Shown here in pieces: positions 14,795 to 60,040 of a DNA stretch of 60,040 bases (positions are counted from its first letter, which is position 1; every line of letters starts with the position of its first letter). The stretch is from the NCBI GenBank assembly GCA_019689975.1, contig JADGGK010000010.1:1-60040 (forward strand), written 5' to 3'. The translations under genes and the position numbers were made by a program. This DNA comes from Pseudolabrys sp. GTDB taxonomy: Bacteria; Pseudomonadota; Alphaproteobacteria; Rhizobiales; Xanthobacteraceae. The notes below the pieces were generated by a model that saw only the letters and a program-made list of their open reading frames with translations, had not been told where the DNA came from and made no database searches.

Positions 14795-14815
14795 GTGTTC
14801 GCGGGCCGCATCGCC

Positions 14816-16401: not shown

Positions 16402-16405
16402 CCGC

Positions 16406-26213: not shown

Positions 26214-26243
26214 TGGTTCCTCGTGCACCACGGATCTTTCCGA

Positions 26244-26731: not shown

Positions 26732-26735
<4 letters not shown>
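26412..26735 (+). CDS. pntAB: NAD(P) transhydrogenase subunit alpha 2 (membrane)
   Basis: 107 residues with three membrane helices ('[20 protein letters not shown]', '[15 protein letters not shown]', '[20 protein letters not shown]') and a basic tail KKKK. This is the alpha-chain part of the membrane proton channel. Its stop overlaps the pntB start (ATGA). Confidence 0.95.
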
Positions 26736-28126
<1,391 letters not shown>

Positions 28127-29473: not shown

Positions 29474-29504
29474 GATCAGACGGCGATCGGAGTGAGCCGG
29501 CGCC

Positions 29505-29590
29505 GCCATGGCGAGGAGCCCCGCATAAGGCGACGAAGCAATCCGGGAGCAGATCAATACCGGATTGCTTCGCTCGGCTCGCAATGACGG
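29505..29590. repeat. Palindromic intergenic repeat, copy C
   Basis: One half has GAGGAGCCCCGC and GCGACGAAGCAATCCGG; the other returns as CCGGATTGCTTCGCTCGGC and TCGCAATGACGG. This is the cleanest inverted pair among the copies and lies inside the split Liv operon. Confidence 0.75.
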
Positions 29591-29948
29591 ACCCTTCTGG
29601 ATCGTTTCGCTGCGCCCGCAATGCACCCGCTCAACGCCCGCGCTCATGGGTCGGTATCGACGAGGTCCGCTTTAGGATCCGCCGCGGCCCGCGCATCGAG
29701 AACTCGCGTGAACCTCGCCCTGACCGTCCCCTGTCCGCCCGCACGGAGGACCGGCGATAGCAATGCAGGGCGCGCGCAACAAGGCGGGAAGGCGGCGCCG
29801 TATCCTCGGTCGGCGGTCCCGGAAACGGAGCCGGGATGGCGACGTCCGGTGACCGGCTCGGCGGCGCCGGTCTTGCGCTGGTCAAGCCAGGAACCTGTGC
29901 CGGGCGTGCGCAGCTTGCGATGCGGCATCGGGTACGGGAAAAAGGGCG

Positions 29949-29974
29949 CGGATCCCGTCCTGAGGCGGGATCCG
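29949..29974 (+). promoter_or_regulatory. Hairpin just upstream of livH (system 1)
   Basis: CGGATCCCG (29949-29957) and CGGGATCCG (29966-29974) are perfect 9-base arms with an 8-base loop, ending 17 bases before the livH ATG. It could protect or process the downstream message, or hinder ribosome loading. Confidence 0.5.
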
Positions 29975-29991
29975 TTGCGACGGCGAACACC

Positions 29992-30912: not shown

Positions 30913-32072
30913 TGGTGGCAGCCGACGAGAAGCGCGCGGATCTTCGGCCGGCGCTCGCCGCGCTCGGCGCGGCGGACGCCTATCTGATCGCGCTGCTCGC
31001 GGTCGAGAGTACGGCCGCCGTCCTCGCGCTGCTGATTGCCGGCGTCGCGGCCGTCATCGTCGCCGCCCGCTTCGGTCTCGTCGGACGTGTCGCCCGTGCG
31101 TTCGCGGCCCATGAAGACACGCTCGGCCTGTTCGCCGTCGCCGCGCTGCTCGTCGTCGCCGCGGTCTTCCATTCCGACCATTTCGTGCTGTTGCTTCTGG
31201 TGACGGTGCTGCTCTATTCGACCGCGGCTCTCGGATTGAACGTGCAGTTCGGCTATGCCGGCGTGCTGAATTTTGCCGGCGCGTCGTTCTTCGGCATTGG
31301 CGCCTATGCCGCCGCGGTGCTCAACACCTTCACCGCCGTCCCGCATCTCGTCGTGCTGGCCATCGGCGGGCTCGCGTCGGCATTGATCGGTTGCCTGCTG
31401 CTGCTTCCGGTCCTGCGGACGCGCGGCCACTATGCCGCCGTCGTGACCATCGCCTTCGCGCTGCTGTTCAAGACGTTCCTCGAAGTCAACGACGTCCTCG
31501 GCGGCCCGCAGGGGATGCCGGTGCCGGGCATGGCGCTCCTCGGCTGGTCGTTCAATGACAACATCGAAATCGGCGGAATCCGGCTCTCCTTCTACATGAG
31601 TTATCTGGTTGCCAGCCTCCTGCTCCTGGTCGCCGCCTTCATCGTCGTGAGGCGCCTCGAGCGTTCCTGGATCGGGCTCAATTTCGATGCCCTGCGGCTC
31701 GACGAAACCGCCGCGAGCTGCTTCGGCCTCGATATCGCGCGCTGGCAGATTACCGCCTTCCTGATCGGCAATTTCATCATCGGGCTCGCCGGCGCCTTGT
31801 TCGGTATGGTCGGCGGTTTCGTCGCGCCCAACAACTATACCTTCGCGGATTCGCTCATTCTCGTCTCGATTTTGCTGCTCGGCGGCATCGGCAATCCGTG
31901 GGGATTGATCGTGGCCACCTTCATCGTGGTGGTGGTGCCGGAAAAGCTGCAGGGAATCCAGGAATACCGTTTCCTGCTCTACGCGCTCATGGTGATCGTC
32001 GTACTGCTTTTTCGTCCCCAAGGCCTGCTGCCGCGGCCGGTGCGGCACTATTTCCCGGGCCGGAAGCCATGA
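30912..32072 (+). CDS. livM: Branched-chain amino acid-type ABC permease LivM (system 1)
   Basis: 386 residues. The core LivM domain runs from about residue 100 ('LNVQFGYAGVLNFAGASFFG', 'IGNPWGLIVATFIVVVVPE'). Ahead of it is an extra segment of roughly 90 residues with two hydrophobic stretches ('LIALLAVESTAAVLALLIAG', 'LGLFAVAALLVVAAVFH'), so the protein is longer than the partner permease of system 2 (340 residues). The ATG overlaps the livH stop and the livG start overlaps its stop (ATGA). Confidence 0.92.
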   Translation: MVAADEKRADLRPALAALGAADAYLIALLAVESTAAVLALLIAGVAAVIVAARFGLVGRVARAFAAHEDTLGLFAVAALLVVAAVFHSDHFVLLLLVTVLLYSTAALGLNVQFGYAGVLNFAGASFFGIGAYAAAVLNTFTAVPHLVVLAIGGLASALIGCLLLLPVLRTRGHYAAVVTIAFALLFKTFLEVNDVLGGPQGMPVPGMALLGWSFNDNIEIGGIRLSFYMSYLVASLLLLVAAFIVVRRLERSWIGLNFDALRLDETAASCFGLDIARWQITAFLIGNFIIGLAGALFGMVGGFVAPNNYTFADSLILVSILLLGGIGNPWGLIVATFIVVVVPEKLQGIQEYRFLLYALMVIVVLLFRPQGLLPRPVRHYFPGRKP

Positions 32073-32842
32073 CGGCGCTGCTGGAAGCGCGCGGTCTCAC
32101 CAAATATTTCGGCGGCGTGCTCGCGCTCGATCACCTCGATCTCGCGGTTGCGCGTAACGAGATTGTCGGCCTCATCGGCCCGAACGGGTCCGGCAAGACG
32201 ACGTTCTTCAATGTCATCACCGGCATCTACCGCGCCGACGCCGGCCGCGCGATTTTCGACGGCCTCGACATCACCGCGGCGTCGGCGCAGGCGGTCTATC
32301 GCGCGGGCATCTCCCGCACTTTTCAGCGCTCGCGGTTGTCCCTGCCGCTGTCGATCTTCGACAACATCATGATCGGCAATCACAAGCATCTCAATCAAAG
32401 TTTATGGTTCAATTTATTCCGACGCGATGATTTCAAGCGCGAATTCGAAGCCGGCTATGCGGCGGCCCGCGAGTTGGTCGACGTGTTCGAACCGCATCTG
32501 GCCGATCGCCTATTCGAGCCGGTGGCCGGCCTGCCGATGATCGACCGCCGCCGGATCGAGATCTGCCGCGCCCTGATCAGTCGGCCCAAGCTTTTATTGC
32601 TCGACGAGCCTTCCGCCGGAATGACACATGACGAGACACGGGCCCTGATGCAGGACATCCTCTCGGTGCGGGCGCGCAACAAGGACCTCGCGATCATCAT
32701 CGTCGAACACGAGATGGGCGTCATCGAGCGGATTACCGATCGCTGTGTCGTGCTGAATTTCGGCCGCAAGATCGCCGAAGGCCCCTACCGTGCGGTGGCC
32801 GAGGATGCCGAGGTGCAGCAGGCCTATCTCGGAGCGACGTGA
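32069..32842 (+). CDS. livG: Liv-type ABC transporter ATPase LivG (system 1), atypical signature motif
   Basis: 257 residues. Walker A 'IGPNGSGKTT' (about residues 37-46), Walker B 'LLLLDEPSAGM' and the switch His in 'IIIVEHEMGVIERI' are intact. At the place of the LSGGQ signature it reads 'VAGLPMIDRRRIEICRAL', with no recognisable S-G-G-Q. The ATPase of system 2 has a similar replacement, so this looks like a subfamily trait rather than decay. It overlaps livM by four bases and livF by one. Confidence 0.92.
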   Translation: MTALLEARGLTKYFGGVLALDHLDLAVARNEIVGLIGPNGSGKTTFFNVITGIYRADAGRAIFDGLDITAASAQAVYRAGISRTFQRSRLSLPLSIFDNIMIGNHKHLNQSLWFNLFRRDDFKREFEAGYAAARELVDVFEPHLADRLFEPVAGLPMIDRRRIEICRALISRPKLLLLDEPSAGMTHDETRALMQDILSVRARNKDLAIIIVEHEMGVIERITDRCVVLNFGRKIAEGPYRAVAEDAEVQQAYLGAT

Positions 32843-33552
32843 TGGCGGGCCTGCTGCGGATCGAAAGCGTGTTCACCGCCTATGATAGGGCCGACGTCCT
32901 GCACGGGGTGTCGCTGACGGTGGAGCCCGGCAGCATCACCTGCCTGCTGGGCGCCAACGGCTCGGGCAAGACCACGCTGGTGCGTTCGATCCTGGGACTG
33001 ACGCCGCCGCGCGCCGGACGCATCATCTTCGATGGGCGCGAGATCACCGCGCTGCCGACCCACAAGATCATCGCCGCCGGGATCGCCTGCATTCCCGAAG
33101 GACGCAAGGTGTTTCCCAAGCTGACGGTGGAGGAGAACCTGCGGGTCGGCGCCTATGGCGAACGCTCGAAGGCGGCCGTCGCCGCGCGCATGGACGAGAT
33201 CATGCGCATTTTCCCGCGGCTCGCCGAGCGCCGCGCCCAGCTTGCCGGAACCATGTCGGGCGGCGAGCAGGCAATGGTATCGATCGGCCGCGGCCTCATG
33301 TGTGCGCCGAAGCTGTTGCTGATCGACGAGCCGTCGCTCGGGCTCTCGCCGCTTTTGGTCAAGGAAAACTTCAACATCATCCGGCATATCAATGCCCGCG
33401 GCATTACGATCCTCCTGGTTGAGCAGAACGTGCACCAGACGCTCGCGATCTCGCACCAGGGTTATGTATTGTCGAAGGGCAAGGTGGTTGCGGCGGGCAG
33501 CCCGGACGAGCTCAAGGACCGGGCCGAGGTACGGGAAGCCTATTTCGGCTGA
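32842..33552 (+). CDS. livF: Liv-type ABC transporter ATPase LivF (system 1)
   Basis: 236 residues. Walker A is 'LGANGSGKTT', the signature is 'MSGGEQAMVSIGRGL', Walker B is 'LLLIDEPSLGLSP', and 'ILLVEQNVHQTLAIS' carries Gln in place of the switch His, as is usual for LivF. The C-terminus 'REAYFG' is typical. The ATG at 32842 overlaps the livG stop (TGATG). Last gene of the first Liv operon. Confidence 0.94.
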   Translation: MAGLLRIESVFTAYDRADVLHGVSLTVEPGSITCLLGANGSGKTTLVRSILGLTPPRAGRIIFDGREITALPTHKIIAAGIACIPEGRKVFPKLTVEENLRVGAYGERSKAAVAARMDEIMRIFPRLAERRAQLAGTMSGGEQAMVSIGRGLMCAPKLLLIDEPSLGLSPLLVKENFNIIRHINARGITILLVEQNVHQTLAISHQGYVLSKGKVVAAGSPDELKDRAEVREAYFG

Positions 33553-47973: not shown

Positions 47974-48019
47974 ACGACGCTTCCGGTCGGGAAATCGCCT
48001 TGACTTCGAGGCGTTTGGC

Positions 48020-48046
48020 CGTTTCCCTTGCCGGAAGGGAGAAACG
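48020..48046 (+). promoter_or_regulatory. Imperfect inverted repeat over the IclR ribosome binding site
   Basis: CGTTTC-CCTT and AAGGGAGAAACG pair with one bulge, and the right arm contains the ribosome binding site (GGAAGGGAG) 5 bases before the ATG. It could be a second repressor site or an RNA hairpin that limits translation. Confidence 0.35.
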
Positions 48047-48050
48047 AGCC

Positions 48051-48899
48051 ATGGATGCGAAGATCCTCCGGGGGCCGGGCGCCGGCGCCGGCGCGGCGAC
48101 TGCGGGTGACCGCCACAGTATTCAGTCCGTCGACCGGGCGCTTTATCTCCTGGAGACCATTGCCGACGCCGGCGGGGAAGCGAGCCTCACCGAACTTGCG
48201 CGGCGCACCGGGCTGAATATCTCCACCTGCCATCACCTTCTGGCCACGCTCGTCAAACGCGGCTTCGTGGTCAAGGTGCCGAGCCGCCGCCTTTACGGGC
48301 TCGGCAACCGGATCTTCTACTTGAGCCGCGCCTGCCTGCAGGTCGATCTGCCGCGGCGCGCCGAGCCCTATCTCGACGCGATCAACCGCGCCACCGGGGA
48401 GACCGTGCACCTTGCCGCGCTGCAGGGCGATGCCGTCATCACGCTCGCGGTGCGCGAGGCGCGCCACGCGGTAAGGGTTGGAACCGGGAAGGTGGGCAAG
48501 GTCGAAGCGCCGCACGCGACATCGGTCGGCAAGGCGATACTCGCCTGGCTGCCCGAGGATGAGATCCGGCGCATTCTTGCATCCGGCATGAAGCGCTACA
48601 CCAAGAACACCATTACCGATCTCCCGTCGCTGCTCGAGTCGCTTCGCGCCGTGCGCCGTCGGGGCTATGCGATCGATACCGAGGAATATCTGCCCGGCGT
48701 GATCTGCATCGGCGCCGCCATTCGCGATCAGGCGGGTACGGTGATCGGGGCGATCAGCGCCTCGACCCCGACGATGCGCGCGGATGAAGCGCATCTCGCG
48801 TTGATGCGGGACGAGATTTGCGCCGCCACGCGCTCGCTGTCGGCGGAATTCGGCGCGCCCAATGCCCCGGCCGGTGCCGCGCAGGCGGCCGCCGGCTGA
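48051..48899 (+). CDS. IclR-family transcriptional regulator (island II, left)
   Basis: 282 residues from the ATG at 48051. After a short Gly/Ala-rich leader, the winged helix-turn-helix (about 25-90) reads 'RALYLLETIADAGGEASLTE' then 'LARRTGLNISTCHHLLATLV'. The effector domain (about 100-270) carries 'ETVHLAALQGDAVITLAV', 'HATSVGKAILAWLPEDEIR' and 'GVICIGAAIRDQAGTVIGAI'. IclR proteins commonly control degradation of aromatic or organic acids. The alcohol dehydrogenase gene follows after 32 bases. Confidence 0.93.
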   Translation: MDAKILRGPGAGAGAATAGDRHSIQSVDRALYLLETIADAGGEASLTELARRTGLNISTCHHLLATLVKRGFVVKVPSRRLYGLGNRIFYLSRACLQVDLPRRAEPYLDAINRATGETVHLAALQGDAVITLAVREARHAVRVGTGKVGKVEAPHATSVGKAILAWLPEDEIRRILASGMKRYTKNTITDLPSLLESLRAVRRRGYAIDTEEYLPGVICIGAAIRDQAGTVIGAISASTPTMRADEAHLALMRDEICAATRSLSAEFGAPNAPAGAAQAAAG

Positions 48900-48931
48900 G
48901 CCGTCGATCGCGTCCTCTCGTGGAGGTTCGG

Positions 48932-50101
48932 ATGTATGCACCGCCGGGTGTGAAGACCAACCATAATGAATTCCCCATCCCGGAGCGCATGAGGGCATGG
49001 GTGCTCGGGGCACCCGGTGAGCTCGCCATGACGACCAAACCAACGCCCGTGCCGCGCAGAGCCGAAGTGCTGGTGCGGGTGGACGCGGTGGCGATCTGCG
49101 CCACCGATCTCGACGTCATCTATCACGGACCGCCGGCGCTTATCCAAGGCGGTCTGCCGTTCAACAAGAACTTCACGCCCGGCCACGAATATATGGGCAC
49201 CGTGGTGGCGCTCGGGCCGGGCGTGGACGAATACCGGATCGGCCAGCGCGTGGCGGTCGAAATCCACGCCGGCTGCGGCCAGTGCAAGCGCTGCCGCGAG
49301 GGCATGTATACCTCGTGCCACAACTACGGCCTCAATTACGGCGAGGTCGACAAGGGCCACCGTGCCAATGGTTTTACGACCGACGGCGGCTTCTGCGACT
49401 ATCAGGTCAACAATATCAACACGCTGGTGGCGATCTCCGACACGATGTCGGATGAGGAAGGGACGCTCGTCGTCACCGCCGGCACGGCGATGTATGCCCT
49501 CACCGAACTGGGCGGCCTGGTGGCCGGCGAGAGCGTCTGCGTCACCGGCCCGGGCCCGATCGGGTTGCTGACCGTCGCCGTGGCCAAGGCGCTCGGCGCC
49601 CAGCCGGTAATCCTCACCGGTACGCGCGACAACCGGCTCGAGATCGGGAAAAAGCTGGGCGCCGATCACGTGGTCAACATCCGTCGGACGCCCGACGTGG
49701 TGGCGGAGGTGAGGCGGCTCAACGGCGGCAAGGGTGTCGACTATGTCGTGGAATGTTCGGCGGCGTCCGGCGCGGTCAACGATGCCGTGCACATGGTCAA
49801 CCGCGGCGGCAGGGTATGTCTTGCCGCTTTCGCCCATGAAGAAGTGCCGGTGGATGTCGCCCACATCGTGCGCAACAATATCTACCTCTACGGCATTCGC
49901 GGCGAAGGTCGCAGCGCCACGCACCGCGCCGAGGCCTTTATGCGGCAGAAGCGTTTCGATGCGACCTTGATCCATACCCACACCTTCTCCCTCGACGATT
50001 TGCCGACGGCAATTCGCTACGCCAAGGATCGCGTCGAGGACGCCATCAAGGTAGTGGTCAAGACGAGGCTGAATACCGCGAGCAAGGTCGCGGCGGAATA
50101 A
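48932..50101 (+). CDS. Zinc-dependent MDR-family alcohol dehydrogenase (island II)
   Basis: 389 residues from the ATG at 48932, with GGAGG five bases ahead. Catalytic zinc ligands are in 'AICATDLDVIYH' and 'FTPGHEYMGTVV'; structural zinc is held by the four Cys of 'CGQCKRCREGMYTSC'. The Rossmann motif is 'VCVTGPGPIGLLTVAVAKA'. It oxidises a secondary alcohol or polyol, or reduces the matching ketone, with NAD(P). The extra N-terminal leader 'MYAPPGVKTNHNEF' is not common. It is probably co-transcribed with the IclR gene and converges on the Liv operon of island II. Confidence 0.92.
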   Translation: MYAPPGVKTNHNEFPIPERMRAWVLGAPGELAMTTKPTPVPRRAEVLVRVDAVAICATDLDVIYHGPPALIQGGLPFNKNFTPGHEYMGTVVALGPGVDEYRIGQRVAVEIHAGCGQCKRCREGMYTSCHNYGLNYGEVDKGHRANGFTTDGGFCDYQVNNINTLVAISDTMSDEEGTLVVTAGTAMYALTELGGLVAGESVCVTGPGPIGLLTVAVAKALGAQPVILTGTRDNRLEIGKKLGADHVVNIRRTPDVVAEVRRLNGGKGVDYVVECSAASGAVNDAVHMVNRGGRVCLAAFAHEEVPVDVAHIVRNNIYLYGIRGEGRSATHRAEAFMRQKRFDATLIHTHTFSLDDLPTAIRYAKDRVEDAIKVVVKTRLNTASKVAAE

Positions 50102-50122
50102 CCGCACGAACCGAAATACCGC

Positions 50123-50138
50123 CCGCGCCTTCGCGCGG
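50123..50138. terminator. Stem-loop between convergent dehydrogenase and livM genes
   Basis: CCGCGC (50123-50128), loop CTTC, GCGCGG (50133-50138), located in the 109-base convergent gap. A bidirectional terminator is plausible, without T-runs. Confidence 0.4.
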
Positions 50139-50210
50139 CGACCGGGCGTTGCGGGCGTGCCATGGAGCCGGCGGGCCGGCGTCGCCGCGGCGGTTTTGCG
50201 CGCAAGCCGG

Positions 50211-51233
50211 TTACCGCGCTCGCGCCTTGCCGCTCGGCTCGAGCACGAGGCGTCGCTGCAGCGGCAGCATCTGCCAGCCGAGCCGTTCGACGATGAGGCC
50301 CCAGATACCTTTCGGCGCCGCCAGCATCACCGCGATCGCGACCGTGCCCATCATCATGAGGTAGAGACTGCCGAGATCGGCCAGCGTCTGCCGCAGCAGG
50401 AAGAACACGATGGTTCCGATGATCGGACCTTCGATGCGACCGATGCCGCCGATGACGACGATGAAAATGACGAAGGCCGTCCAGTCGTTGACGCTGAAAG
50501 CGGTGTCCGGCGAGATGCGCAATTTCATCAGGAAGATCAACGCGCCGATCATGGCGGTGCCGAATGCGGTCAGCACGTAGACGGCGAATTTGAGCCGTCG
50601 CACGTCGATGCCGCTGCTCTGCGCGGCGAGTTCATTGTCGCGGACGGCGGTGAGCGCGAGCCCGTGGCGCGAGCGCAGCAGAACGAAGATCGCGACGAGA
50701 ACGGCGACGGCGAGCGCCAATGCCAGCCAATAGATCTCCAGCTCCCGCCACTGCCGCGTCGGCGCCATGGCGAGGACGAGCGAGGCCGGCAGGCTTATGC
50801 CGGAACCGCCGCCGAGCGCCGCGATTTGCGATGCCATCAGGCGGAACACTTCCGCCATCACCCAGGTGCCGATGGCGAAATAGGCCCCGCGCAGGCGGAA
50901 GATCAGCAGGGCGACGGGGATCGATACGAGCGCCGCGACCGGCCCTGCGACCAAGACGGCGGCCAAGGGCGGCACCCCGAATTGGATGCCGAGGGCGAAC
51001 AACAGATAGCCGCCAAGGCCGACGAAGGCCTGCTGACCGACCGAGACGAGCCCGGCATAGCCGGCAAGCAGGTTCCAAAGGCTTGCCAGCGCGACATAGG
51101 TGAACATTTCGGCCAATAGCCTGAGCGTCGCGCGATCGGCCCAGAGCGGCGCCATCGCGAGGGCCGCGAGGCCGAAGCCGGCGAGGGCGACGCCGACGCG
51201 GCTCGAACGCGATGCGTGTTCGACGCGGCTCAT
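50211..51233 (-). CDS. livM: Branched-chain amino acid-type ABC permease LivM (system 2)
   Basis: 340 residues from the ATG at 51233; the frame reads back to 51383 inside livH. About ten helices; 'WNLLAGYAGLVSVGQQAFVG' and 'VIGGIGRIEGPIIGTIVFFL' are LivM landmarks and 'SRHGLALTAVRDNELAAQSS' is the ATPase contact loop. It overlaps livH by four bases (ATGA). Last gene of the leftward island II operon. Confidence 0.93.
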   Translation of the reverse strand: MSRVEHASRSSRVGVALAGFGLAALAMAPLWADRATLRLLAEMFTYVALASLWNLLAGYAGLVSVGQQAFVGLGGYLLFALGIQFGVPPLAAVLVAGPVAALVSIPVALLIFRLRGAYFAIGTWVMAEVFRLMASQIAALGGGSGISLPASLVLAMAPTRQWRELEIYWLALALAVAVLVAIFVLLRSRHGLALTAVRDNELAAQSSGIDVRRLKFAVYVLTAFGTAMIGALIFLMKLRISPDTAFSVNDWTAFVIFIVVIGGIGRIEGPIIGTIVFFLLRQTLADLGSLYLMMMGTVAIAVMLAAPKGIWGLIVERLGWQMLPLQRRLVLEPSGKARAR

Positions 51234-52099
51234 CCCGACACCTTGGGGAACAGTCCCTGCGGGCGGAGCGCCAGGATCACGAGAAACGCGATATGGCCGG
51301 CGAGCAATTGCCAGCCGGGATCGAGCTCGGCGCCGATCGCCTGCGCCACCCCCAGGATGACGCCGCCGGCGAGCGTTCCCCACATATTGCCGAGGCCGCC
51401 GATGATCACGGCCTCGAAGCCGAAGATCAGCCGTGCCGGACCGATCGCCGGATCGAAATTGCTGCGTACCGCGAGAAACACGCCGGCAATTGCGACCACC
51501 GCGAGTGACAGCGCCATGGCCAGGGCAAACACGTGCCGCGTGTTGAGACCCATCAATTGCGCCACCGGCTGATCATCGGAGGTGGCGCGGAAGGCGCGGC
51601 CGAGCGCGGTCTTGTAGAACAGCACCTGCAGCGCGGCGATGACGAGGATCGCCACCGCGAACTGCACAAGCGGGAGATAGCCGACCCATACCCCCGGCAT
51701 CAGCTGCGCGGTCAGCACCTCGATCGCACCGGCCTGCAGTTTGCGGCTGTCGGCGGTGAACAATTCCAGCAGGCCGTTCTGGATGATGACCGAAAGACCG
51801 AAGGTGACAAGCAGGGGCGGCAGGAGGTCCTCGCCGAGGGTGAAATTGAGCAGTCCGCGCTGCAAAGCGTAGCCGACGAGCGCCATAATCGGCACCACGA
51901 GGACGAGCGACGTCAGAGGATCGACTCCGAGCGCCTGCGTCACCATGAGCGACACATAGGCGGCAAGCACGATGAGATCGCCGTGAGCGATGTTCACGAG
52001 TCGCATGACTCCAAAGATCAACGACAGGCCGACGGCGAACATGGCGTAGAGCCCGCCGGTGAGCACGCCCTGCACCACGACATTGAGCCATTCGGTCAT
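51230..52099 (-). CDS. livH: Branched-chain amino acid-type ABC permease LivH (system 2)
   Basis: 289 residues from the ATG at 52099, which has GGAG ten bases upstream; an ATG at 52108 overlapping the livF stop is the alternative. 'VVVQGVLTGGLYAMFAVGLS' and 'LIFGVMRLVNIAHGDLIVLA' are the LivH entry, and 'AVIIGGLGNMWGTLAGGVIL' is the conserved loop near the end. 'ALGRAFRATSDDQPVAQLMG' would contact the ATPases. Confidence 0.93.
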   Translation of the reverse strand: MTEWLNVVVQGVLTGGLYAMFAVGLSLIFGVMRLVNIAHGDLIVLAAYVSLMVTQALGVDPLTSLVLVVPIMALVGYALQRGLLNFTLGEDLLPPLLVTFGLSVIIQNGLLELFTADSRKLQAGAIEVLTAQLMPGVWVGYLPLVQFAVAILVIAALQVLFYKTALGRAFRATSDDQPVAQLMGLNTRHVFALAMALSLAVVAIAGVFLAVRSNFDPAIGPARLIFGFEAVIIGGLGNMWGTLAGGVILGVAQAIGAELDPGWQLLAGHIAFLVILALRPQGLFPKVSG

Positions 52100-52104
52100 C
52101 GGCC

Positions 52105-52809
52105 TCATACTCCGAAATAGGCCGCGCTGATGGTCTCGCGCGTGAGTTCGCGGGTCGCCCCGTGCAGCGCGACGCGACCCTCCTGCAGGCAGTAGGCGCG
52201 AGCGGCCGCCTTCAGCGCCTGGGCGATGTCCTGCTCGACGATGACGAGCGACAGGCCTTCCGCGACGATGCGCGGGATCTGCGCGTAGATGTCGCGCACC
52301 ACGATCGGCGCCAGGCCGAGGCTGATCTCGTCGCAGAGCAGGAGCCTCGGATTGGCCATCAGCGCGCGGCCGATGGCTGCCATCTGCTGCTGCCCGCCCG
52401 AGAGCGCGGTCGCGGGCAGGCGACGGCGCGCGGCAAGCGCGGGGAAGAGGTCGTAGACGCGAGCGAGGGTCCACGGTCCGGGGCGTTTGAGCTGCGCGCC
52501 GATCAGGAGGTTTTCTTCGACCGTGAGCGAGGGAAACAGCCGTCGCCCTTCCGGCACCAGCGCGACGCCGCGCCTGACCACCTCGAATGCCGGGCTGTGC
52601 GTGATCGAGGCACCGGCGAGCCGAATCTCGCCTCGCCGGGGATGCATCAGACCGGCGATGCTTCTGAGCAGCGTGCTCTTGCCCGCGCCATTGGCTCCGA
52701 TGACGGCGACCACCTCGCCGGTCTCGATGCGCAGCGACACGCCGAACAGCGCCTGGAAATCACCATAGAAGACGTCGATGCCGCGCACATCGAGCAGGGG
52801 GTCAGCCAT
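52105..52809 (-). CDS. livF: Liv-type ABC transporter ATPase LivF (system 2)
   Basis: 234 residues. Walker A 'IGANGAGKST', signature 'LSGGQQQMAAIGRAL', Walker B 'LLLCDEISLGLAP' and 'LVIVEQDIAQALKAA' are present, with the usual LivF Gln at the switch position. The C-terminal 'SAAYFGV' is typical. Its start overlaps the end of livG by 8 bases. Confidence 0.94.
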   Translation of the reverse strand: MADPLLDVRGIDVFYGDFQALFGVSLRIETGEVVAVIGANGAGKSTLLRSIAGLMHPRRGEIRLAGASITHSPAFEVVRRGVALVPEGRRLFPSLTVEENLLIGAQLKRPGPWTLARVYDLFPALAARRRLPATALSGGQQQMAAIGRALMANPRLLLCDEISLGLAPIVVRDIYAQIPRIVAEGLSLVIVEQDIAQALKAAARAYCLQEGRVALHGATRELTRETISAAYFGV

Positions 52810-53530
52810 CGGCGGCGATTCCCATGTAAATCTCCGCCACCTGCGAGGAGCGGATCACCTCCCGCGGTTCGCCTGCGGCAATAAATCTGCCGCCGTGCAG
52901 GACGAGCAGGCGATCGATGCTGGCGAGCAGGGCGTGCACGATGTGTTCGATCCACACGATCGAGACGCCGGAAGCGCGCACGTCCTTGATGAGCTCGACC
53001 AGCGCGTGGCATTCGTGCTCGGTCAAGCCGCCGGCGACCTCGTCGAGCAGCAGCACTCGCGGCTTCGTCGCCAGCGCGCGCGCAAGCTCGAGCCGCTTGC
53101 GGTCGAGTAGCGTCAGGCCACCGGCGCTCCGGTTCGCCTTGTCGGCGAGTCCGCAGCGGTCGAGCAGATCGGCCGCGCGGTCATAGACCGCGGCCTCCGG
53201 CTCGCCGGCGCCGAAGGCTGCGGCCACGACGACGTTTTCGAACACCGTCATGCCGACAAAGGGTTGGGGAATCTGGAACGCACGGGCGAGACCCTTGCGG
53301 CAGCGTCGGTCCGGCGACAGGCCGGTAATGTCTTCGCCCGCGAACAGCACGCGTCCGGCATCCGGGGCCAGGGCGCCGGCGGCGATGGCGAAAAGGGTGG
53401 TCTTGCCGGCGCCGTTGGGTCCGATGATGCCGAGCGCTTCGCCCGCATTGAGCGCAAGGGAAATGCCGTCGGCGACGACGACCGCCCCGAATCGCTTGGA
53501 TATGTTGTCGAGCGCCAGCAGCGGAGCCAT
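52802..53530 (-). CDS. livG: Liv-type ABC transporter ATPase LivG (system 2), atypical signature motif
   Basis: 242 residues from the ATG at 53530; the open frame continues to 54406 across the binding-protein gene but is a shadow there. Walker A 'IGPNGAGKTT', Walker B 'VLLLDEVAGGL' and the switch His in 'IVWIEHIVHALLAS' are present. The signature position reads 'SAGGLTLLDRKRLELARAL' rather than LSGGQ, matching the trend in system 1. It lies 8 bases after the binding-protein gene. Confidence 0.92.
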   Translation of the reverse strand: MAPLLALDNISKRFGAVVVADGISLALNAGEALGIIGPNGAGKTTLFAIAAGALAPDAGRVLFAGEDITGLSPDRRCRKGLARAFQIPQPFVGMTVFENVVVAAAFGAGEPEAAVYDRAADLLDRCGLADKANRSAGGLTLLDRKRLELARALATKPRVLLLDEVAGGLTEHECHALVELIKDVRASGVSIVWIEHIVHALLASIDRLLVLHGGRFIAAGEPREVIRSSQVAEIYMGIAADG

Positions 53531-53538
53531 GGCGGTCG

Positions 53539-54816
53539 TCAGGTCAGCGGCTTCAGCTTGCCGCCGACGGGGATCATCGGCGCCGATTCGTTCTCCGCGA
53601 TCACGAGATCGAACTTGCCGTCCGTCTGCCGCACCCATTGGCCGGCGACCAGCGGCGTCTTGGTCACGTTCTTCACCGGCTGCCCGGTCCACTGCACGGG
53701 GCCGACGATCGATTGGTAGCGGGTGGTCGTGATCGCTTCGAGGATCGACCGCGGATCGCTCAGGTTCTTCGCTCGCTTGAGGATGTCGATCGCCACCTCG
53801 AACAGCGCATGCTGATAGCCGATCGGCTGCGTCCACGGCCGGCGGGTGGCGCGCATATAGGCGTCGGTGAGCTGCCGTGCGCTTTGCCCGGTGAGACCGG
53901 ATTTGAAGGGGAAGTTCGGCGTCCACCAGATCTCGGTGGACAGCCCGTCGCCACGCGCGCCCAGCGCTTCGACGGCCGAGGGGAAGAGCAGCGCCTTGCC
54001 GATGGTCACGATTTTGGGCCTGAACCCCTGCTGTGCCGCCTGCGCCCAGAAGGTGGCGAAGTCGGGCGGGATCATGTTGCCCACCACCATCTCGGCGCCC
54101 GCCGCCTTGAACGCCGAGATCTGCGACGTGAAGTCGTTGTTCATGACTTGGTAGCGGCCGGGATCGATCAGCCGGTAGCCGGCCTTGGTCAGCGCCGGCG
54201 GCAGGCCGTGCTGCGGATCGCCCCAGGCATTGCCGTCGGCGTCGTTCGGGAACAGCCCGCCGACCACTTTGTTGGTCGGAAGCTCCGCCCACATCGGCAG
54301 GTAGGAGGCGATGACGTCTTCCAGGCCCCAGAAGAAGTGGTAGGTCCAGGTGAAACCCTTCTTCGGATCGCCCTTGCGTCCGAAGAAATAGGGCTGCCAC
54401 GGGCAATTGGTCGTCACGCAGGGCGTTTCGTTGACCTCGGCCTGATCGGCGACGGGGTTGGTGGTGTCCGGCGCGGCCGAGGCGAGGATCAGGTTGACCT
54501 TGTCGCCGAGGATGAGCTCGGAGGCCACCTCGGCGGCGCGGCTGCCGCTCGACTGGCTGTCCTTGGAGATGATCTCGACCGGATAGGTCTTGCCGTTGTT
54601 CTGCAGGCCTCGGGCGAGAATGCCGCGCACCTGTTCGAGGATGAATGCGTCGGCCTCGCCGAAGCCGGCGAGCGGGCCGGTCTTCGGGCTCACATGGCCG
54701 ATCTTGATGACCGCGGACTGGGCATTGGCCGGCAACAGGCGCAGAACCGCGGGCGCCGCCGCCATGCCGAGGCCGCGCTTCATCAGCGTGCGTCGCGAAA
54801 TCGTCCCCTCGACCAT
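53539..54816 (-). CDS. ABC transporter substrate-binding protein, HAAT/Liv class (system 2)
   Basis: 425 residues from the ATG at 54816, which has GGGAGGAG ahead; the frame extends to 54948 without support. The N-terminus 'SRRTLMKRGLGMAAAPAVLR' is a twin-arginine signal, so the protein is probably exported folded. The mature part begins 'AVIKIGHVSPKTGPLAGFGE' and has 'LILASAAPDTTNPVADQAEV' and 'VVGGLFPNDADGNAWGDPQH'. Many Tat-exported Liv-type binding proteins in this group sit with aromatic or organic acid genes. It would bind the island II substrate. It lies 22 bases after the dehydrogenase gene. Confidence 0.92.
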   Translation of the reverse strand: MVEGTISRRTLMKRGLGMAAAPAVLRLLPANAQSAVIKIGHVSPKTGPLAGFGEADAFILEQVRGILARGLQNNGKTYPVEIISKDSQSSGSRAAEVASELILGDKVNLILASAAPDTTNPVADQAEVNETPCVTTNCPWQPYFFGRKGDPKKGFTWTYHFFWGLEDVIASYLPMWAELPTNKVVGGLFPNDADGNAWGDPQHGLPPALTKAGYRLIDPGRYQVMNNDFTSQISAFKAAGAEMVVGNMIPPDFATFWAQAAQQGFRPKIVTIGKALLFPSAVEALGARGDGLSTEIWWTPNFPFKSGLTGQSARQLTDAYMRATRRPWTQPIGYQHALFEVAIDILKRAKNLSDPRSILEAITTTRYQSIVGPVQWTGQPVKNVTKTPLVAGQWVRQTDGKFDLVIAENESAPMIPVGGKLKPLT

Positions 54817-54838
54817 AGTCTCCTCCCTTCGCTGCGCT

Positions 54839-55753
54839 TCAGGTTTCCTCCGTGCTCGCCCGTCTGAGGTGCCGCAGCACTTTCGATCGGAGAGCGGCCT
54901 GTTGGTCCGGCGTCCATCGACGGAAGCCTTCGCCCGACTTGAAACCAAGGCGGCCTTCCCGCACCAGTCTTTCGAGATAGGGCGAAGGGGCGGGCCGGCT
55001 GTCGATCGCCGGCAGCACCGTGCGATGAATCGCCAGCGTCATGTCCGTGCCGACGAGGTCGGCGTTTTCCAAAGGCCCGAGCACCGCGAGACGACGGCCG
55101 AACGAGTTCTTGATCACCATGTCCACCGTCTCGGCATCGCAGATGCCGTTCTCGACCAGCGCGATCGCCTCGCGCCAGAGCGCGTGCTGCAGGCGATTGC
55201 CGATGAATCCGGGAACGTCCTTTTTCACATGCGCGGGCTTCTTGCCTGCCGCCGCATGCAACGCCATGGTGAAGGCGACGACGGCCGGGCTCGTCCATTG
55301 CGTCTCGATCACCTCGACGAGCGGCACGAGGTAGGGAGGGTTCCACCAGTGCGTGCCGAGGGCGCGCTCGCGGCGCGCGAGGCCTTGCATGATCTGCGAA
55401 ATCGGGATGACCGAGGTGTTGCTGGCCAGGATCGTATCGGGCCCGACGTACCGCTCGATCTCGGCAAACAGCGCCTGCTTGAGGGAAAGATCTTCAGGCA
55501 CGGCCTCCACCACATAGTCGGCCCCGCGCACGGCACGCGCAAGATCGGCGACCGGCGTCACCCGCGCGGCGGCGCCCGTATCCTCGCCGAGATCATTGAG
55601 GTTGGAGAGAATGCGCGCTTTCGCGCTTTCGAGGCTGGTCGCGTCGGAATCGTGGATCGTCACCTCGTGACCGGCAAGCGCGAAAACCTGGGCTATGCCG
55701 TGACCCATCAGGCCGGCGCCGATCACCGCGATTTTTGCCTTGTTCGCGGCCAT
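54839..55753 (-). CDS. 3-hydroxyacyl-CoA dehydrogenase-like NAD enzyme
   Basis: 304 residues from the ATG at 55753, which has GGTGGAG seven bases upstream (an ATG two codons earlier is possible). 'IAVIGAGLMGHGIAQVFALA' is the NAD Rossmann motif, 'ILASNTSVIPISQIMQGLA' and 'GTHWWNPPYLVPLVEVIET' carry the catalytic Ser/His region, and 'DVPGFIGNRLQHALWREAIA' the conserved Asn. The 'HWWNPP' variant replaces the common 'HFFNP', suggesting a substrate other than acyl-CoA, as in carnitine or gulonate dehydrogenases. It would oxidise a beta-hydroxy acid in the island II pathway. Confidence 0.88.
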   Translation of the reverse strand: MAANKAKIAVIGAGLMGHGIAQVFALAGHEVTIHDSDATSLESAKARILSNLNDLGEDTGAAARVTPVADLARAVRGADYVVEAVPEDLSLKQALFAEIERYVGPDTILASNTSVIPISQIMQGLARRERALGTHWWNPPYLVPLVEVIETQWTSPAVVAFTMALHAAAGKKPAHVKKDVPGFIGNRLQHALWREAIALVENGICDAETVDMVIKNSFGRRLAVLGPLENADLVGTDMTLAIHRTVLPAIDSRPAPSPYLERLVREGRLGFKSGEGFRRWTPDQQAALRSKVLRHLRRASTEET

Positions 55754-55898
55754 GGTCATGCTCCACCGTCGCGCAGCGATCCCGACGATCGGATCTCGGT
55801 GCGATGATCTGCCGTGCGGCGCGAATGGTGCCCGGCATTGGCTCGCGCGGTTGGCGCGCGCCGACGAATTCCGCCGCGGGGTGCGTCAAGCTCCATCG

Positions 55899-56702
55899 TC
55901 ATCCCGCGGTGTAGCCGCCGTCGGCATAGAGGATGTGGCCGGTGTAGAAATCGGATGCCTTGGAGGCGAGGAAGAGGAGCGGTCCTGCGAGATCCTCGGG
56001 CTCGCCGAGCCGGCCCTTGGGTACGCGCGCAAGGAAGCCCTTGCGCACGGCTTGAGCCCGTTCGGTGTCTTCGTACATCCACGCCGTGAGCGGCGAGCGG
56101 AATACCGTGGGCCCGAGGGCATTCACGGTGATGCCGCTTTCGCCCCATTCGCAACCGAGCGCCTTGGTGATGCCGTCGACCGCCGCCTTCGACGCGCAAT
56201 AGGCGCTGTAGCCGGCGGGATGGCCGAGCAGACCGCGCGCCGAAGACGTGAGGATCACCTTGCCACCCTGGCCCTGTTTGAGCATCTGCCGGCCGGCTGC
56301 GCGGGCCATCAGCCACGACTGGTTGACGTTGGCGTCCATCACCTCGCGGAAGTCATCGTAGCTCTGGTCGACGATCTTCGATACCTTGTTGAGGCCGGAG
56401 GCGACGACGAGGATGTCGAGCCGGCCGAATTTGTCGACCGCGGCCTTGACGATCTTGTCGCAGTTCTCCTCGCTCGAAGGCCGCAGCGCCACGATTTCAG
56501 TCTTGGCGCCGAGCCGCTCGCACTCGGCCGCGACCTTCTTCAGCTCATCGATCCGGCTCGCGGACAGCACGACATGGGCGCCTGCGCCCGCAAGCGTTCT
56601 CGCCGCGAGCGAACCGAACGCGCCGGTTGCGCCGACGACGATGGCGACCTTGCCGCGGATGTCGAACAAGGATAGCGGGTTTTTCAGAAATTCATCGGAC
56701 AT
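55899..56702 (-). CDS. Short-chain dehydrogenase/reductase
   Basis: 267 residues from the ATG at 56702. The cofactor loop is 'VAIVVGATGAFGSLAARTL' and the catalytic set is Ser153/154 in 'VILTSSARGL' with Tyr168-x3-Lys172 in 'YSAYCASKAAV'. The N-x-A-G element is replaced by 'VVASGLNK'. 'GITVNALGPTVFRSPLT' and 'HILYADGGYTAG' are the normal C-terminal marks. It oxidises or reduces a hydroxyl/keto pair of the island II compound. Gaps of 113 and 145 bases flank it in the otherwise close array. Confidence 0.92.
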   Translation of the reverse strand: MSDEFLKNPLSLFDIRGKVAIVVGATGAFGSLAARTLAGAGAHVVLSASRIDELKKVAAECERLGAKTEIVALRPSSEENCDKIVKAAVDKFGRLDILVVASGLNKVSKIVDQSYDDFREVMDANVNQSWLMARAAGRQMLKQGQGGKVILTSSARGLLGHPAGYSAYCASKAAVDGITKALGCEWGESGITVNALGPTVFRSPLTAWMYEDTERAQAVRKGFLARVPKGRLGEPEDLAGPLLFLASKASDFYTGHILYADGGYTAG

Positions 56703-56815
56703 TCTCTGGCCTCCCCGAACTCGCTGCCGCCGTACGTCGCCCGGCACGTGGCCGAGGCTCAAGCCCAACCGGATCATCGTGCCGCCGGCGCAACGCGCCG
56801 TCGCGACGTGCGATC

Positions 56816-57160
56816 TCACCCCGCGGGCGCCGCGGCGACGGCGACGAGAATGGTGCACACTTCACGGCCGCGGTTGACGATCTCGCGCGTCTCGTTGGGC
56901 GCGATGAACACGGTATCGCCTGGTCGCGCCACTTCCTGCCTGCCGCCGGCGATCACCGTGAGCTCGCCCTTGAGCACGTGGTAGATCTTTTCCGGCGGCG
57001 ACGCGTCGGGGCCGGCGCCGCCGCCGGGCTGGAAGTGCGAGATGCCGAAGATCAGGTTCCGCGAGCCGCCCATCTCCGCGCCGAAGATGCGCAGCGACTC
57101 GTAGTTGCGATGGTGCGGGGCCGCGTAGGGTTTCGCTTCGGCCAGCCTGCGAACGATCAT
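56816..57160 (-). CDS. Small single-domain cupin
   Basis: 114 residues from the ATG at 57160, which overlaps the cyclase stop (TGATG). It is one cupin barrel: 'ISHFQPGGGAGPDASPPEKI' then 'YHVLKGELTVIAGG' and 'ARPGDTVFIAPNETREIVNR'. The metal-binding His pattern of cupin motif 1 is incomplete (G-x5-H-x-H is not seen; only 'EKIYHV' gives one His), so a metal-free or sugar/acid-binding role is possible. It could be a dioxygenase-like accessory, isomerase or sensor of the pathway. Confidence 0.85.
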   Translation of the reverse strand: MIVRRLAEAKPYAAPHHRNYESLRIFGAEMGGSRNLIFGISHFQPGGGAGPDASPPEKIYHVLKGELTVIAGGRQEVARPGDTVFIAPNETREIVNRGREVCTILVAVAAAPAG

Positions 57161-58002
57161 CAGAACCTCCTTCCGCGCTCGATACGATATTTTCCCTCCG
57201 GATCGATGATCGCGACGAGCCGCACGATGCAGCCGTCGCCCCGCTCCCAGTTCCAGGGGAAGAACGCGAAGGTGCAACGCTTGCCGGTCACCTTGTCGAT
57301 GTCACCGCCGACATTCTCGATCCCGAGAATGCCGTTCTTGAACAGGATGCGATGGACCGGCTCCCATTCGGGGAAGTCATCCTTCCAGTTCCGTCCGCCC
57401 GACCACTCGTAATATTCCTTTTCGAGATGCGGATGCAGGGGACCGTTGCGTTGCGGGCCAATGGCGGTCGCGAGCGGATGATCGTTCGCCTGAGTATCGT
57501 GGCCGACCACCTTGACCTTTTTCTCCACGAACCACTCGCCGGCCGAAGGCACGAAGCCGGGCGCGTAGCAGAAATATTCCTCGCTATCCTCGTATTTGTG
57601 GTGCCATCCAGTATTGACGATCACCACGTCGCGCGGCCGCACCGCCTTGCCGCACGCCTTTTCGAGATCGTCGGCGGTGATCGGCTCCCATTTGTTCTTG
57701 GGGATCGACACCACGATGCCGGAGCCGAAGAAATGCGGCAGCGGGACCTCGTCGATGAAGGGGGTGCCCTGGACGACGTGCGCCGGCGCGTCGATATGCG
57801 TGGTATTGTGCATCGAGGTGGTGATGCGTTGCGAGAGCACGCCCGATTTCGCCATATAGTGGATGCGCTCGATCTTGACATCCTCGAAATAGGGCCAGTT
57901 CGGCGATTGATAGCCGAAACGATGGGACAAATTGTAGAATTGCAGTCCCATGCTGTTCTTCAGATTCTCTTCGAGCATCACGCCGCGAATTCGCTTGGCC
58001 AC
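57160..58002 (-). CDS. Cyclase-family (PF04199) metal-dependent hydrolase, island II
   Basis: 280 residues from a GTG that has an ideal AGGAGGAGGAGG site. The metal motif is H65-N-T-T-H69-I-D71-A-P-A-H75; the usual Gly in H-x-G-T-H is Thr here. 'DVVIVNTGWHHKYEDSEEYF', 'HDTQANDHPLATAIG' and 'GIENVGGDI' with 'FAFFPWNWERGDG' match the cyclase of island I in order and spacing, so the two are paralogues of one long subfamily. The family opens amide or lactone bonds with a divalent metal. It is the first enzyme gene after the IclR gene in the leftward array. Confidence 0.88.
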   Translation of the reverse strand: MAKRIRGVMLEENLKNSMGLQFYNLSHRFGYQSPNWPYFEDVKIERIHYMAKSGVLSQRITTSMHNTTHIDAPAHVVQGTPFIDEVPLPHFFGSGIVVSIPKNKWEPITADDLEKACGKAVRPRDVVIVNTGWHHKYEDSEEYFCYAPGFVPSAGEWFVEKKVKVVGHDTQANDHPLATAIGPQRNGPLHPHLEKEYYEWSGGRNWKDDFPEWEPVHRILFKNGILGIENVGGDIDKVTGKRCTFAFFPWNWERGDGCIVRLVAIIDPEGKYRIERGRRF

Positions 58003-58088
58003 GGTTTCCTCCTCCTCCTTTTTGCCGGTCGCATGGTCATTGCCTCGCATCTGGCCTCGTGCCGCATGGCAGGACCGACCGGCTGCGC

Positions 58089-58862
58089 TCAGGTCATCGT
58101 CGATCGGATGCGCTCCTCCAGCGCGTGCTTGGTGGCGATGAGACGCTCGGCGATCATCCCCTCGCGGCCGTTGAAACGCTGCGTCGGCACGGGCACGGAA
58201 ATCGCAACGGCATTGCCGAGCGGGTCGCGCAGCGCCACGCCGGCGGCGCATATCCCGAGCGTATGCTCCTCGCGGTCATAGGCGACCCCGGTGCGACGCA
58301 CCGCCGCGATGTCCTTGAGCAGCGCGTCGAGGCGCACCAGCGTCCTGGGCGTGCGCGACTCATAGACGCGACCGATGAGCTTCTCGATCGCTGCGTCGCT
58401 GAGCTGCGCGAGATAGGCCTTGCCGTTGGCGGTGCAATACAGCGGGAAGGTTTCGCCGACCGCCGAGACCGTGCGCAGACGCTGCGACCCGATCACCTGG
58501 TCGATGAAGACGAGATGATCCTTCTTCACCGTGGATAGGTCGACCGTCTCGCGCAGGTCTTCCGACAGACGTTCGAGATATGGCCGCGCCAGGGCGACGA
58601 AGTCGCTGCGCACCGAGGCGGCAAGCCGCAGGATCGCCGGGCCGAGCCGCACGCGCCCGTTCGGCGTCGCCGCGATGACCAGCTTCTCGCTCTCGAGCGC
58701 GGCGACGATGCGTTGCACGGTCGAGCGCGCAAGTTTCACCCGCTGCGCGATCTGGCCCAGGCTCAAGCCCGCGTTTTCCTCCTCCAGCGCGCGCAGAATG
58801 GTCGCCGCGCGGGCGATCACCTGCACCCGATTCTTGCCGTTGACGACGAGGCGGTCGCTCAT
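58089..58862 (-). CDS. IclR-family transcriptional regulator (island II, right)
   Basis: 257 residues. The helix-turn-helix is 'LSLGQIAQRVKLARSTVQRI' followed by 'VAALESEKLVIAA'. The effector domain has 'ETVDLSTVKKDHLVFIDQVI', 'PLYCTANGKAYLAQLSD' and 'GICAAGVALRDPLGNAVAIS'. It is divergent from the amidohydrolase gene across a 120-base region with a direct repeat, and co-directional with the cyclase gene 86 bases downstream. I infer that it controls both directions. Confidence 0.93.
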   Translation of the reverse strand: MSDRLVVNGKNRVQVIARAATILRALEEENAGLSLGQIAQRVKLARSTVQRIVAALESEKLVIAATPNGRVRLGPAILRLAASVRSDFVALARPYLERLSEDLRETVDLSTVKKDHLVFIDQVIGSQRLRTVSAVGETFPLYCTANGKAYLAQLSDAAIEKLIGRVYESRTPRTLVRLDALLKDIAAVRRTGVAYDREEHTLGICAAGVALRDPLGNAVAISVPVPTQRFNGREGMIAERLIATKHALEERIRSTMT

Positions 58863-58905
58863 GGTGGCCGGCTGCGATCCGTGTCACGCGGCCCCTGCGG
58901 CCGCC

Positions 58906-58934
58906 TTGCAATACGGTACAGAATAGCCCAAAAT
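58906..58934 (+). promoter_or_regulatory. Candidate promoter of the amidohydrolase gene
   Basis: TTGCAA (58906-58911) and CAAAAT (58929-58934) are spaced by 17 bases, 48 bases before the ATG. The -10 match is moderate. Confidence 0.35.
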
Positions 58935-58943
58935 CCGATACAG
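58912..58943 (+). promoter_or_regulatory. Direct repeat, candidate IclR operators
   Basis: TACGGTACAG (58912-58921) and TCCGATACAG (58934-58943) share 8 of 10 bases and start 22 bases apart, two helical turns. The first lies in the promoter spacer, the second just past the -10 element, as expected for repression by the adjacent IclR protein. Confidence 0.4.
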
Positions 58944-58982
58944 TTGGAAGCGCCAAGTTGCGCCGGCCGCGGGGAGGGGTTC

Positions 58983-59927
58983 ATGGTGAAAAAGATCGCG
59001 CTCGAGGAGCATTTTCTCGACCCGGCCACCGAGCCCTATTGGCACCCGACCATGGTGGACGTTGCGCCGGAGAAGAAGGCGCAGCTCTACCGCGCGCTGA
59101 CCGATTTCGACGACGCGCGCCTGGCGATGATGGAGAAGACGGGCATCGCGCATGCGGTGCTCGCGGTCGCGGGTCCCGGGGTGCAGGCGGAGCGCGACAC
59201 CGCCACGGCCGTGCGGGCGGCGCGCGCCGCCAACGATTTCCTCGCCCGACAGGTGCAGAAGCGGCCGGACCGTTATTCAGGCTTCGCTCATCTTGCCATG
59301 CAGGACGCGCGCGCGGCCGCCGACGAGCTCGAACGCTGCGTGCGCGAGCTCAGGTTCCGCGGCGCCATGATCAACGGCCACACCAACGGACGTTATCTCG
59401 ACGACCCGGCCTATGATCCGTTTTGGGAGCGCGCGGCGGATCTGAACGTGCCGATCTATCTGCACCCGGCCGATCCGGTCGCGCCGCTGCCGGCGATTGC
59501 CGGCTACAACGTGCTCGCGCGTCCGATGTGGGGCTGGGGCGTCGAAACTGGCTCGCATGCCTTGCGCATCATCTGCGGCGGCGTGTTCGAGCGCCATCCG
59601 AAGGCGAGACTCGTGCTCGGCCATCTCGGCGAAACGCTGCCGTTCCAGCTCTGGCGCTTCGACAGCCGCTCCGCTCCCTACGGCTGGAGACTGCCCAAAC
59701 CGCCCTCGCAATACCTCAGGGAGAACGTTTGGGTCACAACGTCCGGCATGTACGACCTGCCGCCGCTGCGCTGCTCGCTCGAGGCGCTCGGGCGCGACCG
59801 CGTGATGTTCTCGGCGGATTATCCCTTCGACTGGTCGGGCTGCGAATTCATCGACACGGTGCCGCTCGAGGAAAGCGTGCGGGCCGATGTGGCTTACAAC
59901 AATGCCGCGGCGCTGTTGGGACTTTGA
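58983..59927 (+). CDS. Amidohydrolase of the gamma-resorcylate decarboxylase / ACMSD family
   Basis: 314 residues. Metal and catalytic residues of 2,6-dihydroxybenzoate (gamma-resorcylate) decarboxylase are in register: Glu8 and His10 in 'IALEEHF', His161 in 'VPIYLHPADP', His214 and Glu217 in 'VLGHLGETLPF', and Asp279 in 'VMFSADYPFDW'. 'RCVRELRFRGAMINGHTNGR' and 'YLDDPAYDPFWERAADL' also follow that family. Such enzymes remove CO2 from hydroxybenzoates or related acids without cofactors, using a divalent metal; some relatives are hydrolases. It has GGGGAGGGG upstream and is divergent from the IclR gene. Confidence 0.9.
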   Translation: MVKKIALEEHFLDPATEPYWHPTMVDVAPEKKAQLYRALTDFDDARLAMMEKTGIAHAVLAVAGPGVQAERDTATAVRAARAANDFLARQVQKRPDRYSGFAHLAMQDARAAADELERCVRELRFRGAMINGHTNGRYLDDPAYDPFWERAADLNVPIYLHPADPVAPLPAIAGYNVLARPMWGWGVETGSHALRIICGGVFERHPKARLVLGHLGETLPFQLWRFDSRSAPYGWRLPKPPSQYLRENVWVTTSGMYDLPPLRCSLEALGRDRVMFSADYPFDWSGCEFIDTVPLEESVRADVAYNNAAALLGL

Positions 59928-59951
59928 CCGTCCCTGCGGCGCGGGCTGTGA

Positions 59952-59995
59952 CTGGATTGCTTCGTCGCCCCTTCGGGGCTCCTCGCAATGACGGG
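59952..59995. repeat. Palindromic intergenic repeat, copy G (cut by window end)
   Basis: GGATTGCTTCGTCGCCCC, then GGGGCTCCTCGCAATGACGG, is the standard right half. CGTCATTGTGCGCC at 60006 and CGTCAT at 60035 look like the start of another copy that runs off the window. Confidence 0.7.
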
Positions 59996-60040
59996 TCACA
60001 TTCCCCGTCATTGTGCGCCCGCGCGCATTTTCCCCGTCAT

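Follow-up and report, generated by a model that had tools for sequence, protein, structure and literature searches.

A candidate operon under IclR control for breaking down phloroglucinol or its carboxylate reductively and without oxygenases in Pseudolabrys sp.

A gene cluster at positions 48051..59927 of a Pseudolabrys sp. contig (JADGGK010000010.1, assembly GCA_019689975.1) is likely to contain an operon under IclR control by which phloroglucinol (1,3,5-trihydroxybenzene) or its carboxylate would be broken down reductively, without an oxygenase, as judged from homology, catalytic residues and gene order. The stretch analysed, called the window here, is the entire 60,040-base contig (C19) of a 3.57 Mb genome in 201 contigs, rated 98.87% complete. 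We found all 13 genes of the cluster in the places, order and strands given in a preliminary description of this DNA, and each of them has Pfam family support. Ten genes run leftward from IclR1 to LivM. They are packed most tightly at LivG/LivF, which overlap by 8 bases, and the widest gap, of 139 bases, separates the genes for a short-chain dehydrogenase/reductase (SDR) and a dehydrogenase of the 3HCDH family. The amidohydrolase gene (AH, + strand) is divergent from IclR1, and the sequence stops 113 bases beyond it; at the other end, IclR2 and a zinc-type dehydrogenase gene (both +) converge on LivM. As described before, the cluster contains no CoA ligase, ring hydroxylase or ring-cleavage dioxygenase. 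The features are as follows.

58983..59927, + strand: AH, amidohydrolase-2 decarboxylase, gamma-resorcylate-decarboxylase-like (PF04909)
58900..58943, no strand: conserved block in the AH/IclR1 spacer, a probable shared promoter/operator (spacer alignment)
58089..58862, - strand: IclR1, regulator of the IclR family that heads the leftward operon (PF01614, PF09339)
57160..58002, - strand: DPGC, dihydrophloroglucinol cyclohydrolase-like cyclase (PF04199)
56816..57160, - strand: small cupin, constant partner of DPGC (PF07883)
55899..56702, - strand: PGR, phloroglucinol-reductase-like SDR (best solved structure 5g4k/5g4l)
54839..55759, - strand: TfD, 3-hydroxy-5-oxohexanoate dehydrogenase-like, 3HCDH family (PF02737/PF00725)
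53539..54816, - strand: LivK, periplasmic binding protein (PF13458)
52802..53530, - strand: LivG, ABC ATPase (PF00005; best NCBIfam model LivG, below its cut-off)
52105..52809, - strand: LivF, ABC ATPase (PF00005; best NCBIfam model LivF, below its cut-off)
51230..52108, - strand: LivH, ABC permease (PF02653)
50211..51233, - strand: LivM, ABC permease (PF02653)
48932..50101, + strand: zinc-type dehydrogenase, a neighbour outside the conserved unit (PF00107/PF08240)
48051..48899, + strand: IclR2, second IclR regulator, paired with the zinc dehydrogenase (PF01614)

The Liv/HAAT set is complete, with a binding protein (PF13458), two ATPases (2x PF00005) and two permeases (2x PF02653), and would take up a small aromatic acid. 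AH would strip a carboxylate from a ring position ortho to hydroxyls, the simplest case being the conversion of 2,4,6-trihydroxybenzoate to phloroglucinol, and the SDR would reduce phloroglucinol to dihydrophloroglucinol. The cyclase would then open the ring by a metal-dependent retro-Claisen C-C hydrolysis to yield 3-hydroxy-5-oxohexanoate, which the 3HCDH-like enzyme would oxidize to triacetate (3,5-dioxohexanoate). Conversion of triacetate to acetoacetate and acetoacetyl-CoA would fall to an unlinked enzyme, perhaps the single BKACE of the genome. The SDR, cyclase and 3HCDH-like steps have been shown for Clostridium enzymes and are transferred here via homology, residues and gene order. The reductive phloroglucinol pathway of C. 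scatologenes was characterised in 2023 by Zhou and colleagues, who assayed its four enzymes, PGR, DPGC, TfD and TAL, after expressing them (PMC10470551). The preliminary description knew of no characterised pathway with this set of genes; as that pathway is presented in the main text of the paper, the cyclase, SDR and 3HCDH-like enzyme correspond to three of its four enzymes. The earlier order of steps, with oxidation followed by a final decarboxylation, also needs revision: decarboxylation, reduction, C-C hydrolysis and then oxidation is the likely sequence, and the SDR, formerly taken for an oxidising dehydrogenase, likely reduces instead.

The cyclase starts at a GTG preceded by a purine-rich ribosome site, and it matches PF04199 with 119 bits. 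The metal-site motif H65, T68, H69 and H75 is invariant in 18 aligned cyclases. According to the main text of PMC10470551, Trp20-x-Tyr22 of CsDPGC replaces the Ile/Leu of isatin hydrolase. The cluster of Acetoanaerobium noterae, another member of the Clostridia, was used as a stand-in for the C. scatologenes sequences, and we found that W36-P37-Y38 of the window cyclase aligns with W20-P21-Y22 of the Acetoanaerobium protein, the reference in place of CsDPGC, to which it is 37% identical. W-P-Y is present in 14 of the 18 aligned cyclases, the only exceptions being two Rhizobium cyclases of one locus (L090) and two paralogues from the same genome as the window. Mn-dependent hydrolysis of dihydrophloroglucinol is the probable function of this cyclase, as predicted from its residues and relatives. 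In the cyclase of Rhizorhabdus wittichii RW1 (L087, about 15170), an Asn stands in place of the Asp that the others have in the H-I-D-A-P-A-H motif.

The best solved structure for the SDR is 5g4k/5g4l (180 bits, the next protein scoring 149), which we take to be the PGR of Clostridium BAA-442, the entry title reading only SDR. The SDR is 40% identical to that of the Acetoanaerobium noterae cluster, and the 3HCDH-like protein is 45% identical to its counterpart there. S116, H137 and N188 of the 3HCDH-like protein are invariant in seven aligned proteins and correspond, at a constant offset of 6, to Ser122, His143 and Asn194, given in the main text of PMC10470551 as the catalytic and stereospecificity residues of CsTfD. 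Another mark of TfD is that it has lost Lys56 and Asn221, which contact CoA.

The preliminary description had proposed a search for the conserved neighbourhood; this was run, with one genome per species, and the gene order proved to be conserved beyond chance. The cyclase scan yielded 463 related stretches, and the locus counts given here refer to the best 80 of the 463, each denominator comprising only loci where the contig leaves room (flanks up to 10 kb, many shorter). The core order was kept, with a cupin after the cyclase in 77/79 loci, the SDR in 73/74 and the 3HCDH-like gene in 66/67. LivK occurred in 35/56 loci, LivG in 28/52, LivM in 25/45, IclR1 in 51/77 and a linked BKACE in 12/42. 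The zinc dehydrogenase and the second IclR, which had been counted as parts of the cluster, were found in at least 2 and at least 1 of the best 80 loci, respectively; being rare neighbours, they lie outside the conserved unit. Related loci frequently had further neighbours: a D-2-hydroxyacid dehydrogenase lay beside the amidohydrolase (L048 7163-8119; the family occurs in 23 loci), and the far end of the operon held a second amidohydrolase (L011 17556-18560; 12 loci). Among the carriers that can be cultured are Rhodoplanes elegans DSM 11907 (L082) and R. tepidamans DSM 9987 (L083). A variant cluster (L090 11201-17148; also L133 and L136) holds two adjacent cyclases without W-P-Y, an SDR, a 3HCDH-like gene and a cupin, with a gene annotated as fumarylacetoacetase in L090, and may represent a sister route acting on a different ring.

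The cupin was also kept in rearranged clusters, in 8/8 loci from plasmid records and 16/16 further loci. Its model (pLDDT 91) has a TM1459-like fold, and it is 39% identical to the cupin of the Acetoanaerobium noterae cluster. We propose that it takes part in the pathway core; the main text of PMC10470551 names no cupin.

The distribution of the cyclase is patchy: it was detected in 32/149 genomes of the family (E up to 1e-100), 21/297 of the order (1e-80) and 8/397 of the phylum (1e-50), and in 3/9 listed genomes within the genus. Despite this patchiness, composition does not mark the island of the preliminary description: the six 2-kb bins that span 48001 to 60000 have a GC content of 0.637-0.678, vs 0.614-0.701 across the window, and a tRNA scan of the window found none.

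Among solved structures, AH matches two gamma-resorcylate decarboxylases best, with 222.6 and 213.7 bits. E8, H10, H161, H214 and D279 are invariant in 30 aligned homologues chosen from 63, and presumably the metal-binding residues are among those of its Glu/His/His/Asp site. The AH/IclR1 spacer is 120 bases long, and its block at 58900-58943 is common to 33 aligned spacers (the window and 32 related ones); relatedness alone may account for part of this conservation. AH may make phloroglucinol from 2,4,6-trihydroxybenzoate, the substrate we infer to link it to the operon. In a rather unlikely alternative, AH would be an ordinary decarboxylase of gamma-resorcylate (2,6-dihydroxybenzoate), or act on some other substrate, and would share only the promoter region with an operon that uses free phloroglucinol. 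Besides the solved relatives, the identity of AH among 29 homologues (52-66%, vs 80-92% for most cyclases) and the 18/74 clusters without AH speak for this alternative. However, resorcinol, the product of gamma-resorcylate decarboxylation, would find no downstream gene, as the unit has no hydroxylase or ring dioxygenase, and AH is divergently placed in 56/74 loci. The front ends of other clusters carry MBL-fold hydrolases and a CocE-type hydrolase, as would be expected if different feeder reactions led into one shared hub.

Several observations weigh against the assignment to phloroglucinol. The TR(S/N) motif, which according to the main text of PMC10470551 PGRs carry for the NADPH 2'-phosphate, is absent from the window SDR, which reads S-A-S-R-I there; its relatives read AGN or AGS, some without the Arg. 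The best named model for the 3HCDH-like protein is NF042925 (5-formyl-3-hydroxy-2-methylpyridine 4-carboxylate 5-dehydrogenase; 233 bits, far under the cut-off of 500), its best solved structure is the same pyridine-carboxylate dehydrogenase, and no TfD is named among the solved structures. Liv genes are missing from 21/56 loci with room for them, and the LivK model (pLDDT 81) gives no pointer to the ligand. Further observations concern the last step: no TAL (BKACE) gene is present in the 60-kb contig, and the single BKACE of the genome is unlinked, alone on another contig (C188). In CsTAL, as stated in the main text of PMC10470551, Trp16 stands where Kce has Glu14; this Trp was found neither in the BKACE of the window's genome (TGSIHTPT) nor in the linked alphaproteobacterial BKACEs. 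The genome's BKACE is 58% identical to the linked BKACE used as a query. In a tree of 34 BKACEs it falls into a ten-member clade (100/99), six members of which come from congeners without the cyclase, and this clade was present in 6/6 DPGC-negative congeners tested. Since TAL is not co-located, we file the cluster as working like the phloroglucinol pathway with three enzymes rather than as a full member.

BKACEs are widespread in the family (PF05853, E up to 1e-40; 128/149 genomes), occurring in 32/32 cyclase carriers vs 96/117 non-carriers, with the rows read by hand. When the linked BKACE was searched against the 32 carriers, a match of at least 71% identity was found in 15, matches of only 47-61% in 16, the window's genome among them, and none at 1e-60 in one (G105); three of the 16 (G034, G062 and G071) consist of a single contig and have a completeness rating of 100%. 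In another carrier (G002), a BKACE on a different contig from the cyclase groups with the linked BKACEs (95/93), which indicates that a TAL-type gene can lie away from the cluster. The window's genome shows no TAL-type BKACE. The BKACE of Acetoanaerobium noterae, which reads TGAWPT at the CsTAL Trp site, is 34% identical to that of the window's genome. Triacetate would thus be cleaved either by this genome's general BKACE or by another enzyme. An acetoacetyl-CoA synthetase (1034 bits, cut-off 521) and four CoA-transferase matches at two places are present in the genome, suggesting that the products of triacetate cleavage could be used.

The missing TAL, the lack of its Trp even in linked BKACEs, the unmatched TR(S/N) motif and the 37% identity of the cyclase to a clostridial-type one would also suit the same chemistry on another ring, namely a substituted phloroglucinol or a polyhydroxybenzene giving a cyclic 1,3-dione, the product of which is not triacetate and needs no TAL. 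We consider this improbable, as the Trp-x-Tyr pair and the TfD catalytic residues are retained, and most other groups keep this order and have a BKACE linked to it, as would be needed to cleave a keto acid that the preceding step forms from a hydroxyacid. Also very improbable is a route not described so far that acts on lactones, lactams, amides or cyclic imides, in line with the substrates suggested earlier, and ends in decarboxylation. The solved relatives of the cyclase are kynurenine formamidases and isatin hydrolases of the same family, but the arylformamidase model scores below its cut-off (45 vs 223 bits), and the DPGC-type residues and gene context speak against such a route; lactams, amides or imides are not indicated.

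Elsewhere in the window, a second small unit at 11834-17818 consists of a LysR regulator, a cyclase-family gene, an NMT1-type binding protein, an ABC ATPase, a permease and, as judged by eye, an amidase-like frame. Its cyclase-family gene (12862-13638) is 33% identical to DPGC, with W-P-F where DPGC has W-P-Y. Genes for pyridine nucleotide transhydrogenase, which might supply NADPH, lie at 25086-28126; after them, at 28301-33552, comes another Liv-type ABC set that includes a binding protein.

The breakdown of flavonoids and tannins converges on phloroglucinol, and titles of the related loci include palsa, bog and lake isolates. If our assignment to phloroglucinol holds, an oxygenase-free route would add Alphaproteobacteria of soil, peat and freshwater to the organisms known to take part in polyphenol turnover. 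We tentatively put forward, as a possibility with less than even chances, that the reductive phloroglucinol route of the soil Alphaproteobacteria of this family has five parts, with the cupin as a true pathway enzyme, that 2,4,6-trihydroxybenzoate (the flavonoid A ring) enters it via a dedicated importer and decarboxylase, and that a large subgroup cleaves triacetate without the published TAL.

In comparison with the C. scatologenes cluster, as presented in the main text of PMC10470551, the window likewise has an SDR, a Trp-x-Tyr cyclase and a Ser/His/Asn 3HCDH-like dehydrogenase, their genes sharing an operon with those of a regulator and a transporter. It differs in having no TAL in the cluster and no TR(S/N), in using a Liv ABC importer rather than a major-facilitator transporter, and in carrying a divergent decarboxylase and a cupin, the latter unnamed in that main text. 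Acetoanaerobium noterae, an anaerobe, has the order cupin-SDR-3HCDH-cyclase-BKACE, with 34-45% identity to the proteins of the window and its genome. The core IclR-cyclase-cupin-SDR-3HCDH with a linked BKACE occurs in plasmid records of Pacificitalea, Aminobacter MSH1, Rhizorhabdus wittichii RW1 and Novosphingobium pentaromativorans; near this core, genes for hydroxyquinol/intradiol dioxygenase and maleylacetate reductase lie on RW1 pSWIT02 (L087 8689-13527) and Aminobacter pUSP2 (L086 4620-6609). Pacificitalea pDY25-C, Aminobacter pUSP2 and Sinorhizobium BG8 pEMPC1 share IclR, cyclase (76-79%), cupin, SDR, 3HCDH-like and Liv genes with the window; unlike the window, all three carry a BKACE, and pDY25-C and pUSP2 also an MBL-fold hydrolase, while AH was not found in the fetched stretches of the three plasmids. 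AH resembles the gamma-resorcylate decarboxylases (3s4t/4qro, 2dvt) in its full-length match and acid/histidine site, but differs in its neighbours, which form a reductive phloroglucinol-type operon instead of resorcinol genes. The central chemistry and its prediction in rhizobia are already known, the cluster carriers listed in the main text of PMC10470551 including Mesorhizobium loti and Bradyrhizobium. The new elements are the way importer and decarboxylase are arranged, the cupin as a constant member, and a subgroup that lacks a TAL-type BKACE.

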